Below, piece after piece: positions 8,336-27,835 of a stretch of DNA of 64,000 nt; the first letter of the stretch is position 1, and each line of letters begins with the position of its first letter. The notes beneath the pieces were generated by a model. It saw only the letters and a list, made by a program, of their open reading frames with translations, had not been told where the DNA came from and ran no database searches. Location: positions 1 through 64,000 of IMG/VR virus record IMGVR_UViG_3300006916_000041; one strand, written 5' to 3'. Made by a program: the position numbers and the translations under genes. Source of the DNA: a virus.

Positions 8336-10863
8336 GTTTTAGAGATTTTAAACAAGGTTTGCAAAATGCAAACGACTATTTAGATGCTCAGCATCATATC
8401 AGTGGTACTATTGCTGCTGGCGCTGATGCACTGAGAGTTACTAGTCAAGCACAATACAGTTTCACACTCAGAGAAATCTTATGTCAAGTACTGAGTGGCA
8501 ATGGTATGAAATTACCAAATGTGCAACTGTGTTTGCATGCTAACATTCAAGAGTTATTAAAAATTCCAAACATACAAGGTGAGATTGCAGATGCACTAAA
8601 TCAATTGTTAGGCGGCGTAGAGCAATTTATGGATCATACTAAAATAGACAATGTTTTGGGAAGATTAAACATGGTGTTAGGAGAAGCTCAGAACGTTGCT
8701 AATCTTATCAACTTCTGTAGTGCTCCTGTAGATCCAATTGCTATTCCTAATATGTTGGAACGTGCAATGGGCAGTTTCTTAGGAGCAGGTAAACAACTTG
8801 CTAATGACATTGGTAGTATGGATCCTGGTAATGTTTGTGCATGTATTAGTACCAATGGCGGATTTAATGCCAGTGTATTCAACGGCGGCGTACTAGGAAA
8901 TATTGCCAATCAAATTGATGCAATAACAAGTGGGTCGTTAATACAAAGCGAAATTGATAGAATTGTAAACGATGTTAAGGGTATTACAGATAGAATTACT
9001 AGCTTAGTAGATTTTGAAAATAATATTATTGGTTCTTATTCACCTGGTGGTAGCCAATTTGCAACACCGGACAGCGGATGTAATAGTGAAATTGGTGTGT
9101 TGCACAATCCAGGATCAGGACCTATTAGTGGTAATAGCAGAATTTCAACACAATTAAAAAGTTTATACGACAGGCTTGCAGCTTATCCTGTGCAGTATAG
9201 TTTAGGAAGTGGAAAAGACAATACCACAGGTCATCAGTACGATGCTAATAATAATCGCATTGTTAGTGGAGAAGTAATAGAATATCCTAACATTTTTCAT
9301 CTGTTACTAGATGACGAAATGCTAAACTTGTTACGTGCAGCTGATAATCCAACACCAACGATTGAAAGTCAAATTCCGGTTTATGACTATTGTGGTAACA
9401 TAATAGGTTATACACAAGAGTTTGAACAAAGGGAACAAGAAAAAAGTCAAGGAAATACACCAACTATACCTAACAGTCCGGGTTATCGAGCAGGCGGGCT
9501 AATCACTGACACAGCTAGTCAAGTAAGTGATAATGTGTCAGTTAGTGGTACCACAGTAATTAATAACTTTAATAACACAGGTAATACACTGTATCTAGTA
9601 AGTAGTGAACAAGCACAACTTGCACTAAATGCAAACACAGACGACATTGTAATTAGAACTGATATTTTAACAATCTTCACTCGTAAAGATACAGGAGGTT
9701 TTAACACAGGAACACTAGCAGATTATCAGCAAGCAACTAGCACATTGTTTGACTTTTTAAACAACTTAAATGTAGAAAGTGGCAGTGGTGTTATTGTTAA
9801 AGATGCAGGTGTTAGTAGAGCAAGGCAAGTTGAAGGTAAAGCAGGAGAAACTCGTGTAATCAATGGTGACGGCGCTGGCGGTAACATTAGAGTTGAACTA
9901 GAAGAAAATACTAGAATACCAGGAACAGCAGCTATTAGAATACCAGCTGGTACAACTGCACAGCGGCCAAACACAGAAATTGGCGAAATACGCTATAACA
10001 CAGATACACACAATATCGAAGCATATTACGGAGATACAAACACTTGGCGTAATATTGCTAGCGGCGGCGGTAGTGGATCAATTTCAAGTGCTAGCAATGT
10101 TGGAACAGGCAGCGGTGTATTCAAACAAGCTAGCGGAAGTGATTTAGAATTTAGATCACTTGTAAATGCCGGTGGCATTAGTATTACACAAAATGCAGAT
10201 GATCTTACAATTACTGATACTATTACAAGTAGCAATGTAGGTGGTGCTAATCAAGTATTCAAACAACGTACAGCAAATAATTTTGAATTTAGAACACTGA
10301 CTAGCAGCGATAGCAGTGTTGTAATTACACAAAATGCAGATACAATCGATCTCAGCGGAGATCCAAATGTAAAGAAAACACAAGTCACAACTACAGGAAG
10401 TGGTGCAACAGCAATTCAAGTTAACGGAGTTTATCCAGAACCAGCTAGTGGGAAAACTTGGTTTTTCACTGCTTATGCTATTGGTCGTGCAACCACAGGT
10501 CAAGTACAAGCATTTAAGATTGAAGGACTAGCAGACAATCAAACCGGAACTACTAGTATTGTGAGTAACACTGTGATGAAAACAGACTATCAACGCACTA
10601 CAACAGACACAGTGCAAGCTATATGGGATCCGTTAACTGCATATATAACCAATGATAGTGTTGAATATGACGGTAACATATACCAAGCTAATACTAACGT
10701 GGCTTCAGGTGAACTAAGTCCAGATCAAAATGCTAACTGGACTGTAACTTACACTGGTTGGAACTTTAGTGCTGAAATAGACAATGGTCTTAAATTTAAA
10801 GTTAAAGGCGATGCAACAGCTAATGTTAGTTGGGATGTAAGAATCACATATTTAGAAGTATAA
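8332..10863 (+). CDS. Large virion structural protein with C-terminal repeats
   Basis: An 843-residue protein. The N-terminal 400 residues are mixed helical (LREILCQVLSGNGMKLPNVQ, repeated Cys-containing stretches) and the middle contains a YDYCGNIIGYTQEFEQREQE segment. From about residue 400 the sequence becomes Asn/Thr/Gly-rich and beta-like. Two related units of about 50 residues occur near 585-680 (VFKQASGSDLEFR...ITQNADDLTI, then VFKQRTANNFEFR...ITQNADTIDL), typical of fibre or tail shafts. The final 160 residues look like a separate beta domain. It follows the PAAR-like gene, so a baseplate or fibre protein is likely. Confidence 0.75.
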   Translation: MSFRDFKQGLQNANDYLDAQHHISGTIAAGADALRVTSQAQYSFTLREILCQVLSGNGMKLPNVQLCLHANIQELLKIPNIQGEIADALNQLLGGVEQFMDHTKIDNVLGRLNMVLGEAQNVANLINFCSAPVDPIAIPNMLERAMGSFLGAGKQLANDIGSMDPGNVCACISTNGGFNASVFNGGVLGNIANQIDAITSGSLIQSEIDRIVNDVKGITDRITSLVDFENNIIGSYSPGGSQFATPDSGCNSEIGVLHNPGSGPISGNSRISTQLKSLYDRLAAYPVQYSLGSGKDNTTGHQYDANNNRIVSGEVIEYPNIFHLLLDDEMLNLLRAADNPTPTIESQIPVYDYCGNIIGYTQEFEQREQEKSQGNTPTIPNSPGYRAGGLITDTASQVSDNVSVSGTTVINNFNNTGNTLYLVSSEQAQLALNANTDDIVIRTDILTIFTRKDTGGFNTGTLADYQQATSTLFDFLNNLNVESGSGVIVKDAGVSRARQVEGKAGETRVINGDGAGGNIRVELEENTRIPGTAAIRIPAGTTAQRPNTEIGEIRYNTDTHNIEAYYGDTNTWRNIASGGGSGSISSASNVGTGSGVFKQASGSDLEFRSLVNAGGISITQNADDLTITDTITSSNVGGANQVFKQRTANNFEFRTLTSSDSSVVITQNADTIDLSGDPNVKKTQVTTTGSGATAIQVNGVYPEPASGKTWFFTAYAIGRATTGQVQAFKIEGLADNQTGTTSIVSNTVMKTDYQRTTTDTVQAIWDPLTAYITNDSVEYDGNIYQANTNVASGELSPDQNANWTVTYTGWNFSAEIDNGLKFKVKGDATANVSWDVRITYLEV

Positions 10864-17953: not shown

Positions 17954-18388
17954 ATGAGGGAAAACGCAATATACACAGTAACTCCGCCTGATATGATGTT
18001 GCCAGAAAGCGGGCCTATTATAACAGTAATAAGTAGTAGTGCTGACTTTGTACAAAAAATTGAATTATTGTATGAAAATATTTTTAAAAATGTCAGTGTT
18101 ACACTGTATCATCCAAATGGCAAGGTAACAGAGTCTAATAGTGCTTGGGTAATAAGTATGGTTAGATTTAGCGACACAGTTTATGTAGATTTGGATGATG
18201 TTAACGAACTTAGCCTTGCACTAATTTTATTGAGTAGCAAAACAACTATTTTTATAAATCAGCGTAACAAAAAGAAAGGACTAGTAAAACTGTTAAACAG
18301 CATGACAATACAAAATAAAAAATTTACTATTGTAGACAGCATCGACGAATACAGCGACATGGTACTAGAGAGTGTACTTGATGCGTAG
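17954..18388 (+). CDS. Hypothetical protein
   Basis: A 144-residue protein with an alternating alpha/beta pattern (PIITVISSSADFVQKIELLY, SVTLYHPNGKVTES, TVYVDLDDVNELSLALILL, KTTIFINQRNKKKGLVKLL). This could be a small Rossmann-like domain of the TIR or receiver size class, but I see no diagnostic motif. It overlaps the IF-3 gene by eight bases, hence probably co-translated with it. Confidence 0.65.
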   Translation: MRENAIYTVTPPDMMLPESGPIITVISSSADFVQKIELLYENIFKNVSVTLYHPNGKVTESNSAWVISMVRFSDTVYVDLDDVNELSLALILLSSKTTIFINQRNKKKGLVKLLNSMTIQNKKFTIVDSIDEYSDMVLESVLDA

Positions 18389-18908
18389 ATTTCAAAAAGT
18401 TGCACCTAAGCAACCTATAAACGAAAATATACAGCACAATACACTGAGAGTAGTCGGAGAAGATCAACAATTTGGAATTGTTAGTTTAGACCAGGCATTG
18501 GAATTAGCTAAACAACACCAAACAGACCTAGTAGTAATAAGTGAAAAAAGCGATCCGCCGGTAGCTAAACTATTAGATGCTAATAAATATTTCTACGAAC
18601 AAAAAAGACGTGAAAAAGAAGCAGCTAAAAAACAGCGTGAAAATCAAATTGTAATCAAAGAAGTTCAGTTTAGATTGGGAATTGGTGATCATGATTTTGA
18701 CATAAAACTCAAAAACATTGAAAAGTTTTTAAGCAAAGGCAACAAAGTAAAATGTGTAATACGATATAAAGGCAGAGAAAATGCCAATAAACAACAAGGG
18801 TTTGCGATAATTGATCGTATTACTGAAAGTCTAGAAAATACTGACTGGGAAAGCAAGCCAAATCTAAATGGAAACCGATTAATCGGTGTACTAACGAGGA
18901 AAGAATGA
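18381..18908 (+). CDS. infC: Translation initiation factor IF-3
   Basis: A 175-residue IF-3 of normal length with both domains. The N-domain has INENIQHNTLRVVGEDQQFG and SLDQALELAKQHQTDLVVIS, then SDPPVAKLLDANKYFYEQKR. A Lys/Glu-rich linker helix leads to the C-domain with IVIKEVQFRLGIGDHDFDIK and KGNKVKCVIRYKGRENANKQ. IF-3 binds the 30S subunit, keeps subunits apart and checks start codons. ATG 18381 is chosen because it overlaps the upstream gene and precedes the conserved start. It is followed by bS21 with a four-base overlap. A phage-borne IF-3 is unusual. Confidence 0.93.
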   Translation: MRRFQKVAPKQPINENIQHNTLRVVGEDQQFGIVSLDQALELAKQHQTDLVVISEKSDPPVAKLLDANKYFYEQKRREKEAAKKQRENQIVIKEVQFRLGIGDHDFDIKLKNIEKFLSKGNKVKCVIRYKGRENANKQQGFAIIDRITESLENTDWESKPNLNGNRLIGVLTRKE

Positions 18909-19132
18909 GCAGAGATAGAACTGAAAAACAAGGACTTTATGTAGAAGTTCGTAATAATGATGTAGGTCGTGCTTTACGCAAACTTAAAAAATTAGTAAAT
19001 CAAGAAGGCGTTATAAAAGATCTAAGATCTAAAGAATATTACGAAAAACCAAGTGCTAAGAAAAAACGTGAGAAAGCACAAGCTAGAAAACGTTGGTTAA
19101 AAACTGTTGAAAAAAATAAAGAAAATTGGTAA
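18905..19132 (+). CDS. rpsU: Ribosomal protein bS21
   Basis: A 75-residue bS21: LYVEVRNNDVGRALRKLKKL matches the family start (V.v.....ALR..K....) and the tail is the usual Arg/Lys-rich helix (KYYEKP-like YYEKPSAKKKREKAQARKR). bS21 sits on the 30S near the anti-Shine-Dalgarno end of 16S rRNA and influences initiation. It overlaps infC by four bases, forming a phage translation-initiation operon. Phage-encoded bS21 is known from some marine phages. Confidence 0.93.
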   Translation: MSRDRTEKQGLYVEVRNNDVGRALRKLKKLVNQEGVIKDLRSKEYYEKPSAKKKREKAQARKRWLKTVEKNKENW

Positions 19133-19138
19133 AAAAGG

Positions 19139-19167
19139 TTGACATTTGTGTCAACAAATACTATATT
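19139..19167 (+). promoter_or_regulatory. Consensus promoter for the large structured RNA
   Basis: TTGACA (19139-19144), 17 bases, TATATT (19162-19167). The -35 box is part of an inverted repeat TTGACA-TTTG-TGTCAA, a possible operator or a small terminator for rpsU. No coding frame starts downstream for over 500 bases. Confidence 0.8.
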
Positions 19168-19173
19168 AAAAGC

Positions 19174-19618
19174 ATAACAAAGACGACGGTCTGAGTTAGA
19201 TAGTGCAAGGAAACGCTGCTTACAGAGGCAGTAACTTGGCTAGTAGCTGTAGTGGCACTGCATGAGCCTGGAGACAGGAAGATGCAGATTTTGGAAGTAA
19301 CTATCCAATGCTAGGCTTCGCTGGATATGGACAGGATCTGTGCTGGCGCTTGTGGGTAATCCTTAGTCCCACCTATCAAATATTATAGTGTTTTAATATA
19401 CACACCAGAGTAGATGCACCTGCTTTCCTGTGCATAGGACAAGAGTTGAAAAACCGCAAGTGAGTGTGTATATTAAAGCGTTATGTATTGAACGCTTTGA
19501 TCCGAACTGTAACAAGAAAGGAGACTCACTAGACAAGAATTATAGTGGGACGACTAGAAAAACAGAGAGAAGGGTTGCGCCGTAATACGCACGTTAGGGA
19601 CCACGGTTAGTCCCTAGA
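19174..19618 (+). ncRNA. Large structured noncoding RNA of unknown class
   Basis: About 445 bases with no open frame, a consensus promoter at its start and strong nested pairing. Perfect stems include TTTAATATACACAC with GTGTGTATATTAAA (14 bp, long range) enclosing ATGCAC/GTGCAT; AAAGCGTT/AACGCTTT just after it; CTGCAT/ATGCAG enclosing CCTG/CAGG; GTGGG/CCCAC; and CAAG/CTTG enclosing CTGC/GCAG. It ends in the hairpin TAGGGAC/GTCCCTA (19595-19616). I compared it with RNase P RNA and could not find the conserved P4 or ACAGAAA elements. Ornate large phage RNAs such as GOLLD or ROOL are possible relatives, but I cannot assign one. Confidence 0.75.
19595..19616 (+). terminator. Hairpin at the 3' end of the structured RNA
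   Basis: TAGGGAC (19595-19601), loop CACGGTTA, GTCCCTA (19610-19616), followed by GATAAATAAA rather than a T-run. It may be the terminal stem of the RNA rather than a classic terminator. The GATAAATA just after it (19617-19624) resembles a late octamer. Confidence 0.5.
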
Positions 19619-19681
19619 TAAATAAACTTGTAGATGCCAATAGGGTCTACGTATATAAATCTTGCTTAAAAGGAGATTGAC

Positions 19682-19879
19682 ATGCAAGCACAATATTTTA
19701 ATAACCTTGTGGATCAAATCCACACACAAACAAAAACTTTCCTAAACACAATTGATCCAAGTGAACAGTACACAAAGCCTGTTAAAGCTATGGCTGAAGC
19801 AAATACTGAATTTGCTAAAACTTGGGCAAACGCAGCAGAATCAATGACAACTGCATATACAGCGGCATTGAAAGCGTAA
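19682..19879 (+). CDS. Small helical protein before Hsp20
   Basis: A 65-residue helical protein (QYFNNLVDQIHTQTKTFLNT, then AMAEANTEFAKTWANAAESM) resembling a phasin-like fragment. AAAGGAGATTGAC gives a strong binding site. It is 11 bases upstream of the Hsp20 gene and probably co-transcribed. Function unknown. Confidence 0.65.
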   Translation: MQAQYFNNLVDQIHTQTKTFLNTIDPSEQYTKPVKAMAEANTEFAKTWANAAESMTTAYTAALKA

Positions 19880-19890
19880 GGAGAGAAGCT

Positions 19891-20322
19891 ATGAACAGAT
19901 TAACTACATTAGACATTAACAAACTCACCCCTTATGCAGTAGGCTTTGATAGAGTATTTGACGATATGTTCAAATATGTACAACACAATGCCAATAGCAC
20001 AGGTTATCCACCTTACAACATTGTTCGTGATGGTGACAAGTTTCAAATTGAAATTGCACTAGCAGGTATTGCCAAAGAAGATTTGGAAATCACTGTAGCA
20101 GAAGGTGTACTTACAATTGAACACAATCCAGAAGGCGAAGTTGAACAACCAGGCTGGACATGGATCCACAAAGGCATCAGTCAGCGTAAGTTCAAACGTA
20201 ACTTTACACTAGCAGATGATGTTGTGGTTAATGGTTCACGTATGGAAAATGGTATGTTGTTTATCGAACTAGAACGTATTATTCCAGAAGAGAAAAAACC
20301 ACGTACTATTGAAATAAAATAA
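19891..20322 (+). CDS. Small heat-shock protein, Hsp20/IbpA type
   Basis: A 143-residue alpha-crystallin-domain chaperone. The N-terminus (LTPYAVGFDRVFDDMFKY) matches IbpA-like proteins. The domain shows YNIVRDGDKFQIEIALAGIA, KEDLEITVAEGVLTIEHN, GISQRKFKRNFTLADDVVV and GMLFIELERIIPE. It holds unfolded proteins in a refoldable state. ATG 19891 follows AAGGAGAGAAGCT. Hsp20 genes are frequent in T4-like marine phages, where a role in virion protein folding or late stress is assumed. Confidence 0.93.
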   Translation: MNRLTTLDINKLTPYAVGFDRVFDDMFKYVQHNANSTGYPPYNIVRDGDKFQIEIALAGIAKEDLEITVAEGVLTIEHNPEGEVEQPGWTWIHKGISQRKFKRNFTLADDVVVNGSRMENGMLFIELERIIPEEKKPRTIEIK

Positions 20323-20370: not shown

Positions 20371-20673
20371 ATGGAAGCAACACACACAACCACAAACAAT
20401 GATATGAATATTGTTTATCAACGACCTAATAAATTTAGAGTCGTGCTTCACAATGACAACACTACACCTATCGAGTTTGTGATTGAATTGCTTAAAAATA
20501 TATTTGGTCACAATGACGAACAAGCACAAAATATTACATTGCAAGTTCACAATGAGGGCAAAGGAACTGCCGGTGTATACTACTACGAAATAGCTGAGCA
20601 AAAAGTAGCCGAAAGCACTATGATAAGTCGCACAGCAGGATTTCCACTTTCTCTTGATATTGAAGAGGTTTAA
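20371..20673 (+). CDS. clpS: ClpS, adaptor of the ClpAP protease
   Basis: A 100-residue ClpS. Conserved core: RVVLHNDNTTPIEFVIELL, then QNITLQVHNEGKGTAGVYYY with the adaptor-type HxxG segment, and EIAEQKVAESTMISRTAGFP followed by the hydrophobic end. It delivers N-degron substrates to ClpA. The N-terminal extension that engages ClpA is present (METxxTTTNN-type, polar). A ClpA-like protein is encoded at 61965, so the phage may carry its own adaptor-unfoldase pair. Leaderless late transcription is predicted; guaC starts at the next base. Confidence 0.93.
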   Translation: MEATHTTTNNDMNIVYQRPNKFRVVLHNDNTTPIEFVIELLKNIFGHNDEQAQNITLQVHNEGKGTAGVYYYEIAEQKVAESTMISRTAGFPLSLDIEEV

Positions 20674-21786
20674 ATGAGAATTGAAGATGAAACAAAGTTG
20701 GACTACAGTGATGTCTTGATCCGTCCAAAGCGTAGTACTTTGGGTTCACGCAAAGAAGTACGCATGGAGCGTACATTTACATTTGCACATGGTCAAAATT
20801 ACGAAGGCATTCCAATTATGGCTAGCAACATGGATGGTGTTGGTACTTTTGCTATGGCAGACAAACTAGCAGAAAATGGTATTTTTACTTGTCTTGTAAA
20901 AACATACAGTGTGCAAGAATTGATAGATTACTTTGACAGTGACATGCCTACACGCACAGACAATGTTGCTATGAGTATTGGTATTAAACAAGAAGATCAA
21001 GACAAGTTTCGCACAGTGTATGAACAAGTTGGTAATCATCTTAAATACGTTTGTATTGATGTTGCCAATGGATACAGTCAGCGTTTTATAGAATATGTCA
21101 AAGAATTTAGAACGCTGTATCCTGATATTGTGATCATTGCTGGCAACGTTGTTACAGCAGATCAAACACAGGAGTTAATACTAAATGGAGCAGACATCGT
21201 CAAAGTCGGAATCGGGCCAGGGTCGGTTTGTACGACTCGCATACAAACTGGGGTGGGCTATCCCCAACTTAGTGCGGTTATTGAGTGTGCTGATGCGGCG
21301 CATGGGCTGGGAGGACATATTATTGCTGACGGCGGTTGTACTTGTCCGGGTGATGTGGCAAAGGCTTTTGCTGCCGGTGCTGACTTTGTGATGCTAGGTG
21401 GAATGCTTGCTGGACACGATGAAGGCGGTGGTGAAATTATACAAAAACTTTACAAATCAAATGAATTTATTATACACGAAGATGGTACAGAACAGCATGC
21501 AGTAGAAGAAAAACTATTTGTACAATTCTACGGAATGAGTAGTAAAACTGCCAACGACAAACATTTCGAAGGTCTTAAAGACTATCGTAGCAGTGAAGGA
21601 CGCACAGTTCTTGTGCCTTATCGCGGCGCTGTTATGTCAACAGTTCAAGATATTTTAGGTGGTGTTCGCAGTACACTAACATACGTAGGTGCTCAAAAAC
21701 TCAAGCAACTAGCAAAGTGTACAACTTTTATTAGAGTACACAACCAGTTCAATCGAACATATGAAAGCACAACTACCGGAAATTAA
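20674..21786 (+). CDS. guaC: GMP reductase (IMPDH/GMPR family)
   Basis: A 370-residue barrel enzyme without CBS domains. The signature [20 protein letters not shown] carries the catalytic Cys, followed by [40 protein letters not shown] and [14 protein letters not shown], which match GMP reductase better than IMP dehydrogenase (FYGMSS and LVPYRGAV later). It converts GMP to IMP with NADPH, which would recycle host guanine nucleotides. It directly follows clpS. A central patch (about 21195-21400) uses GGG, GCG, ACG, TCG and CCG codons that are rare in the rest of the gene. Confidence 0.9.
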
Positions 21787-26936: not shown

Positions 26937-27512
26937 ATGAAGATTGTATACATACATGGCGCCACTGCAAGTGAGCGCAGTTTTGCATTTGTGCAAAAAA
27001 GCATCGGTGCTAAAAAACCCTTATACCTAAACTATGATAAAAGTACAACTGCAAAAGACAACTTGCAGGTCATGTATGACACACTAGAAAATGAAAAAGG
27101 ATCATTCTTTTACATTGTACACAGTTTGGGTGGCATATACGCAACATATTTGCAAAAACATTTTGAAGGTCGCAGCGTTGGGTGTGTTAGTCTTGCTACT
27201 CCTTTTGGTGGTAGTGAAATAGCCAGTTGGGGCAGCATGTTAAATCCTGGATATCAACTGTTCAGAGACATTGCTCCTACTAGCAGTTTTATACGAGACA
27301 GTAGACGCACACCAATCACAATACCTTGGACACAAGTACTAACCACTGTAGGAGATGTGCCTTGGCTCAGTGGTCGCAATGACGGTATAGTTACCTATAA
27401 AAGTATGACATGCAGAACAGATGTAGAATACGAACAAGTGGACCGCAATCATTATGAAATTGTTCTTAGTCAAAGAGCGGTTGACATTATCAAACAAAGG
27501 CTGTATAAATAA
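26937..27512 (+). CDS. Alpha/beta hydrolase, PGAP1/lipase-like
   Basis: A 191-residue hydrolase. The oxyanion region is YIHGATASERSFAFVQ, the nucleophile elbow is FYIVHSLGGIYATYLQK, and SLATPFGGSEIASWGSML follows as in PGAP1-like esterases. The likely acid is in GRNDGIVTYKSM and the His in RNHYEIVLS. It lacks a signal peptide. A leaderless late promoter precedes it and the tmRNA promoter lies in its last codons. Substrate unknown; with the lipase at 24621 it forms a second hydrolase in this section. Confidence 0.8.
   Translation: MKIVYIHGATASERSFAFVQKSIGAKKPLYLNYDKSTTAKDNLQVMYDTLENEKGSFFYIVHSLGGIYATYLQKHFEGRSVGCVSLATPFGGSEIASWGSMLNPGYQLFRDIAPTSSFIRDSRRTPITIPWTQVLTTVGDVPWLSGRNDGIVTYKSMTCRTDVEYEQVDRNHYEIVLSQRAVDIIKQRLYK
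27481..27511 (+). promoter_or_regulatory. Promoter of tmRNA, sigma70-like plus late octamer
   Basis: TTGACA (27481-27486), 17 bases, TATAAA (27504-27509). The -10 box is part of an exact TATAAATA late octamer (27504-27511). The tmRNA could therefore be made both early by host sigma factor and late by the phage factor. Confidence 0.7.
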
Positions 27513-27786
27513 ACTGTTAGCGTTGAAGCAACGTGGACACATACTGGACTGCGGGGCGGTACCGCACTCGTCCACCATAAGCACATTTAGATAAGTGTGT
27601 TTTTTATGGGCGAGAAATTAGGATCGACAGGTGTGAAAGTGAAGTGGAGTTAACCGGATGACTGCGTTATTAGTCAAAAATCACAATTGCAAATGACAAT
27701 CGTGCGCCAGAAATGGCACTAGCTGCCTAATTTAGGTAAGTAGGGGTTGGCAACGAACCTGGCAACAGAATCGTTGTACAAAAACC
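27513..27786 (+). ncRNA. ssrA: Circularly permuted (two-piece) tmRNA
   Basis: The acceptor piece comes first: T-stem TGCGG/CCGCA (27550-27554, 27562-27566), acceptor strand CTCGTCC (27567-27573), A and encoded CCA (27575-27577). A spacer hairpin follows (CACA/TGTG with T-run). The coding piece then begins with GGGCGAG (27608-27614), which pairs with CTCGTCC. The tag frame 27689-27730 reads ANDNRAPEMALAA and stop. This order is the one known from alphaproteobacteria, where an intervening loop is removed to give two RNAs. The T-loop reads GGCGGTA instead of the usual TTCRANN. The 5' border is estimated. tmRNA rescues stalled ribosomes and tags products for Clp proteases. Confidence 0.92.
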
Positions 27787-27803
27787 ACACCAGTGGTTTT
27801 TTT
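27781..27803 (+). terminator. Terminator of tmRNA
   Basis: AAAACCAC-ACCA-GTGGTTTT followed by a long T-rich stretch. Confidence 0.85.
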
Positions 27804-27835
27804 ATTTTTTACCATTGATTTTTCATACCAAATAT

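Follow-up and report, generated by a model that had tools for sequence, protein, structure and literature searches.

A mosaic RNA leader upstream of hsp20 in an uncultured T4-like marine phage

The region between rpsU and the hsp20 operon of an uncultured T4-like marine phage is a mosaic leader, in which a manA RNA, two structured elements termed here X and D2, and a ROSE-like RNA thermometer follow each other in tandem, and it is not one large RNA as the initial annotation had assumed. Where they are detected, manA, X and D2 each occur exactly once per genome record and at different loci, namely in hsp20 leaders, among arrayed tRNA genes, next to or within permuted tmRNA genes, and after the gp23 capsid gene. 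These three modules are probably stand-alone phage RNAs and not sensors for hsp20. The full reading, a leader of tandem modules with a cis-acting thermometer in which manA, X and D2 are single-copy trans-acting RNAs that use the transcript as a carrier, is one to which we give about an even chance.

Organization of the leader

The window analysed is the initial 64 kb of an IMG/VR virus record of 172,409 bases, and its T4-like genes include those for ribonucleotide reductase and for a clamp loader (PHROG 168). The locus runs in the order infC, rpsU, leader, a 65-aa ORF, hsp20, clpS and an IMPDH-type gene (Table 1), and the order hsp20-clpS-IMPDH/GMP-reductase gene is also kept in relatives. The 65-aa ORF had no match in Pfam or PHROG; it is missing from many relatives and is found in only part of the lineage. 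As described initially, the region 19174–19618 holds no convincing gene (longest frames 51 aa on the + strand and 47 aa on the − strand), and it follows a consensus promoter, with TTGACA at 19139–19144, a 17-base spacer and TATATT at 19162–19167, which the leader alignment showed to be retained in nearly all aligned relatives.

Table 1. Features of the locus in the window and places of manA and D2 in other records.
Feature	Position	Strand	Evidence
infC	18372–18908	+	IF3_C, 1.3e-24
rpsU (bS21)	18905–19132	+	Ribosomal_S21, 7.5e-19
Sigma-70-type promoter, TTGACA-N17-TATATT	19139–19167	+	sequence
Divergent manA RNA (RF01745), model 1–192	19179–19382	+	41.3 bits, E 5e-9
Element X, ~100 nt	19384–19485	+	core pattern, covariation, covariance model R2
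Small hairpin CACTA/TAGTG, loop GACAAGAATTA, 5′ of D2	19527–19547	+	leader alignment, by eye
D2 core, 46 nt	19571–19617	+	covariation in 57 sequences, single copy in record
ROSE-like RNA thermometer (candidate)	19628–19687	+	ROSE_3, 21.8 bits, E 0.062
65-aa ORF, first gene 3′ of the leader	19682–19879	+	
hsp20	19891–20322	+	PF00011, 2.8e-18
clpS	20371–20673	+	PF02617, 3.6e-27
IMPDH/GMP-reductase gene	20674–21786	+	PF00478, 1.2e-70
manA between or beside tRNA/tmRNA genes	L266 3587–3759	−	
manA between or beside tRNA/tmRNA genes	L276 4259–4436	−	
manA between or beside tRNA/tmRNA genes	L383, L384, L386, L388, L389, L391, L392		
D2 downstream of tmRNA	G006 (L338/L360), G013 (L337/L373), G022 (L330/L372)		
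D2 downstream of tmRNA	G026 (L328/L367), G028 (L334/L369)		

The + strand of this region folds at −132.2 kcal/mol (z −2.74), with 1 of 100 shuffles as good, and the − strand comes close to this (z −2.54). Since both strands fold well, folding energy alone cannot tell which of them matters; covariation can, and homologues were therefore needed. The 14-bp long-range helix noted initially is exact (19392–19405 with 19464–19477); within 150 nt, perfect inverted repeats reach a length of 14, whereas 1000 dinucleotide shuffles gave none above 12.

Homologue searches with bS21 and Hsp20 yielded 80 and 49 viral loci, and about 40 distinct leaders were excised from homologous loci and aligned. In this alignment the leaders of L006, L020 and L044 are without the 14-bp element X, that of L096 is missing manA and keeps the 14-bp element directly after the promoter, and those of L029, L034 and L113 hold little beyond the D2 core and the thermometer. 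The modules are gained and lost independently in loci that are otherwise collinear for infC-rpsU-leader-hsp20-clpS, and the conserved structure extends beyond 19618, up to the thermometer end at 19687. The stem of the small hairpin 5′ of D2, as read by eye, differs among relatives.

Conservation of the four modules

The first module aligns to all positions (1–192 of 192) of the manA model RF01745. In a permissive threshold search the window copy stayed below the gathering score of 55.2, although relatives at the same place exceeded it (L005 with 75.6, L009 with 66.5, L011 with 59.5 and L020 with 56.0 bits); because these orthologous leaders pass the cut-off, the manA assignment is secure despite the divergence of the window copy. 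The initial remark that the region could not be matched is thus wrong for its first 204 nt. For X and D2 no Rfam family matched with E up to 10; the sole Rfam match touching D2, Mu-gpT-DE at 19612–19684, has an E of 6.6 and is at chance level. X or D2 may have been described earlier outside Rfam, the literature search having covered papers free of subscription.

Element X consists of an outer helix P1, which contains the 14-bp helix, a hairpin P2 (ATGCAC/GTGCAT) and a small hairpin P3. Its core, GAGTAGATGCACCTnCTTTCCTGTGCATAGGACAAG, is nearly invariant, and the core pattern is present in 69 viral stretches. The initial annotation had named covariation in homologues as the check on the stems; when this was run, P1 of X was found to covary, its second pair being CG in 10 and GC in 19 sequences, and the inner stem P2 was nearly invariant with one compensatory pair. 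A possible pseudoknot would pair CTTTCC with GGA(C)AAG; it is invariant save for one U-G change, so that covariation neither supports nor refutes this pairing. The conserved fold of X is partially supported by these data.

For D2 the same check gave strong support for a conserved fold, in which the loop of a 4-bp hairpin pairs with the 5′ strand to form a pseudoknot and a 7-bp hairpin with the loop CAYGGTTA follows. The core pattern was found in at least 119 viral stretches. Across 57 distinct sequences 99.1% of cells were paired, and the covariation score was 0.722, compared with 0.231 (sd 0.015) in shuffles and at most 0.160 with the partners slid; the stems tolerate G-U pairs well, and the loop sequences are highly conserved. 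The pseudoknot joins the base before the first hairpin to a loop base of that hairpin, and this pair is AU in 24, GC in 15 and CG in 11 sequences; the two columns, 1 and 12, share 1.22 bits of mutual information, whereas every other column shares at most 0.3 bits with column 1. Outside hsp20 leaders the pair is formed in 37 of 37 sequences (AT 16, GC 12, CG 9), and all seven exceptions, the window included, lie in hsp20 leaders. In the window lineage this first pair is broken (A-G) and the next pair, G3-C10, is available; the alternative pair is retained in six of the seven exceptions.

Several other identities for D2 were considered. A general intrinsic terminator was ruled out since many copies are without a T-run, and a dispersed repeat was ruled out, for X as well, by the single copy per record. 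Guanidine-II RNAs carry two ACGR hairpins, and this identity was dropped because only one D2 loop fits. The D2 loop ACGGTTA has a 7-nt complementarity to UAACCGU, which we take to be a 16S rRNA sequence, and we treat this as a lead only. BLAST for isolated phages or plasmids returned nothing credible, Rhizobium phage matches (E 4) being discounted as the first D2 hairpin is missing from them, and model R1 gave no match in 16 cultured T4-like genomes. The strict D2 pattern had one match only in bacterial genomes, in a 37-kb alphaproteobacterial MAG contig that is possibly a phage.

By sequence and place, the last module looks like a ROSE element. A hairpin, TAGATGCC..GGGTCTA, is followed by CTTGCTT, which pairs with the Shine-Dalgarno sequence AAGGAG. 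It shares with ROSE_3 (RF02523) the hairpin order, the UUGCU-type strand over the Shine-Dalgarno sequence and the small heat-shock gene downstream; it differs in being the last part of a long composite leader, before a phage gene, and in scoring below the cut-off, as the ROSE_3 gathering score of 43 was missed by the window (21.8 bits), by L007 (32.3 bits) and by L012 (35.3 bits, E 0.0013). The arrangement TTGCT..GGAG lies upstream of the start in all of the about 40 distinct relatives, and the thermometer is kept upstream of hsp20 even at 36–45% Hsp20 identity. A variant, CTCGCTT..AAGGAG, was found in the cultured cyanophages S-RIM4, S-B64 and P-SSM3, and pelagiphage HTVC008M has a similar arrangement; these thermometer candidates of cultured phages (L316–L319) are likewise upstream of hsp20. 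Among papers free of subscription, none was found that combines cyanophages, hsp20 and an RNA thermometer.

In the minimum-energy fold of the window the Shine-Dalgarno sequence upstream of the small heat-shock gene is paired. Its predicted mean unpaired probability is 0.10 at 5 °C and 0.34 at 42 °C, that is, it would be largely paired in the cold and only partly opened by heat; such predictions are mixed among relatives, and the pairing is not predicted for L005 and L031. The thermometer would be the cis-acting part of the leader: as the CTTGCTT strand covers the Shine-Dalgarno sequence, heat should allow the first ORF and Hsp20 to be translated.

Copy number and genomic places of manA, X and D2

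Covariance models located D2 once in the window's record and X once in the same 172-kb record, at 19393–19475 with model R2. Of 28 large records of up to 300 kb, 23 have a single D2 and 7 a single X; manA is single in each of the 13 positive records among 45, as it is in every one of the 13 cyanophage genomes that contain it. For the viral records, most of which are fragments, "once" is a lower bound; the cyanophage genomes are essentially whole.

Listed from marine sequences and T4-like cyanophages, including positions upstream of ibpA chaperones, manA was described mainly from presumed 5′ UTRs (Weinberg et al., 2010; PMC2864571), and Rfam has filed it as cis-regulatory since 2010. A possible 5′-UTR position holds for the window copy and for neither the tRNA-array copies nor the P-TIM68 copy, which lies before a convergent gene. 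The window module resembles known manA RNAs in its full-model match and its place upstream of an ibpA-type gene, and the manA copies found here depart from the cis-regulatory literature in being single and often between tRNA genes. In seven records manA lies between tRNA genes or beside tmRNA, with gaps of 5–12 nt. In the cultured cyanophage S-CREM1 (OP535465) it occupies the gap between two tRNA genes, flush with both; the deposited annotation gives tRNA-Leu at 10132–10213, manA at 10215–10429 and tRNA-Asn at 10429–10501, and the authors of that genome still call manA cis-regulatory (PMC9964418). Elsewhere manA follows gp23 in five cyanophages (MED4-213, P-HM1, S-SSM5, P-RSM4 and metaG-MbCM1), pstS in P-SSM4 and P-SSM3, and regA in P-SSM2, where it is near hsp20 (in the order manA, purL, hsp20). 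The same S-CREM1 array (L394) holds a wcaG RNA at 746–843, 47 nt before tRNA-Met; wcaG, another "cis-regulatory" cyanophage motif, may deserve the same re-reading as manA.

X is found in hsp20 leaders; in other leaders, and in tRNA arrays, it directly follows manA. It also lies directly before tRNA genes and within permuted tmRNA genes, where it fills the intervening segment. In many phages the two-piece tmRNA (RF01849/RF04321) carries X in this segment, flanked by the CCA that ends one piece and the GGGGCUGA that begins the other; X is there the excised linker, which caps the acceptor stem in pre-tmRNA and is not part of the mature tmRNA. The single tmRNA gene of the window (27477–27821) has a plain hairpin with a short loop in its intervening segment. 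An outer helix of the segment, ATAAACACA/TGTGTTTAT, recurs in the window and in L353–L374, and encloses X, other apparently structured RNAs or, as in the window, a short loop; in L369 the segment holds a small ORF that has a Shine-Dalgarno sequence of its own. The intervening segment looks like a site at which tmRNA genes carry phage RNAs and small genes as cargo.

The neighbours of D2 comprise 26 protein families as well as tRNA-Glu, tRNA-Lys, tRNA-His and tmRNA. Of 50 sites outside hsp20 leaders, 15 are at most 20 nt from a tRNA or tmRNA gene; a distance of at most 500 nt is seen for 28 of the 50, compared with 15% of random positions. D2 starts 3–12 nt past tRNA ends and ends 10–16 nt ahead of the next tRNA; at sites with no following tRNA it mostly lies 17–49 nt upstream of a start codon, and 64–75 nt upstream in hsp20 leaders. 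In the contexts read, it occupies transcribed gaps and has the same orientation as the adjacent genes. In five records D2 shares its strand with the tmRNA gene and follows it at a distance of ~400 nt (Table 1), and this site is perhaps its older home. In one record, G018, D2 is in the hsp20 leader, and manA and X are in a tRNA array 36 kb away. The ribosome- or particle-related role that had been suggested from the position between bS21 and Hsp20 is not borne out, as the modules sit elsewhere in other phages.

We regard manA, X and D2 as stand-alone RNAs on account of their single copy, strong conservation, unrelated neighbours and frequent tRNA-flush placing. The hsp20 operon would have a long 5′ leader built from independent RNA modules in tandem, and this transcript would serve the three as a carrier, as tRNA arrays, tmRNA genes and late mRNAs would in other phages. 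We infer that they are transcribed, released by cleavage, which in the arrays would be the work of tRNA-processing enzymes, and active in trans as small RNAs. Some points weigh against this reading: the P-SSM2 manA near hsp20 and the presumed 5′-UTR habit fit a role in cis, a single-copy riboswitch would likewise occur once per genome, the D2 sites with no following tRNA are mostly shortly upstream of a start codon, and the window's own lineage has the first D2 pseudoknot pair broken.

Competing readings and significance

The same distances to tRNA ends and start codons, together with the placing of D2 in transcribed gaps on the neighbours' strand and the capping of the acceptor stem by X in pre-tmRNA, are what would be seen if manA, X and D2 were processing or stability elements, that is, folded spacers with no target in trans, which mark where cleavage occurs or protect the 5′ or 3′ ends of tRNA precursors and mRNAs. 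Such spacers would be expected to recur within a genome, yet each module is present once, even in the 19-gene tRNA array of L384, and the loops are far more conserved than a spacer requires; we regard this explanation as unlikely.

In our judgement it is improbable that the hsp20 operon is controlled by a cis-regulatory leader in which manA, possibly with X and D2, provides a series of ligand sensors combined with the thermometer. The Rfam filing, the reported positions upstream of ibpA-type chaperones, and the promoter directly before manA with hsp20 downstream are consistent with such a leader, but manA is beside tRNA or tmRNA in seven records, between tRNAs in S-CREM1 and ahead of a convergent gene in P-TIM68, in five cyanophages it follows gp23, and D2 precedes 26 unrelated protein families.

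A DNA-level element that only resembles RNA, such as a replication origin, a packaging or recombination site, or a mobile hairpin, would account for the single copy per genome and its changing place, but the constant orientation of D2 with its neighbours in the contexts read, the ready tolerance of G-U pairs in the stems and the perfect covariation of the D2 pseudoknot outside hsp20 leaders make it very unlikely. Least credible of all is one large ornate RNA of the GOLLD or ROOL type, to which the strong folding and the association with tRNA genes would be suited, since the region has no Rfam match to either family (at gathering, or with E up to 10 for 18900–19900) and the single gain, loss and relocation of modules largely refutes it.

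What stood of the initial analogy to GOLLD and ROOL is the tRNA-island habit: they are phage RNAs often encoded near tRNA islands (PMC12286853), and manA, X and D2 are likewise phage RNAs that often lie near tRNA genes. Size, family and the single ornate fold did not carry over, as GOLLD and ROOL have hundreds of nt in one ornate fold whereas manA, X and D2 have ~200, ~100 and 46 nt and move independently. RNase P RNA, tmRNA and group I introns, whose landmarks the initial annotation had found lacking, were likewise rejected, with no Rfam match within 19174–19618.

Beyond this leader, manA, X and D2 might form a class of trans-acting sRNAs of marine T4-like phages, borne as cargo by tRNA arrays, by the intervening segment of permuted tmRNA genes or by mRNA leaders and trailers, and released by host tRNA-processing enzymes, with manA misfiled as a riboswitch candidate since 2010; we advance this wider proposal tentatively and lean somewhat against it. 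Two structured RNAs with no Rfam match are added to the phage RNAs, one of them with excellent covariation in more than 100 marine phage stretches. With manA single-copy and place-changing in whole cyanophage genomes, the cis-regulatory assumption of 2010 is now directly testable in cultured phages such as P-SSM2, P-HM1 or S-CREM1. The ROSE-like thermometer before hsp20 across T4-like marine phages suggests that their chaperone output may be tuned to sea temperature.
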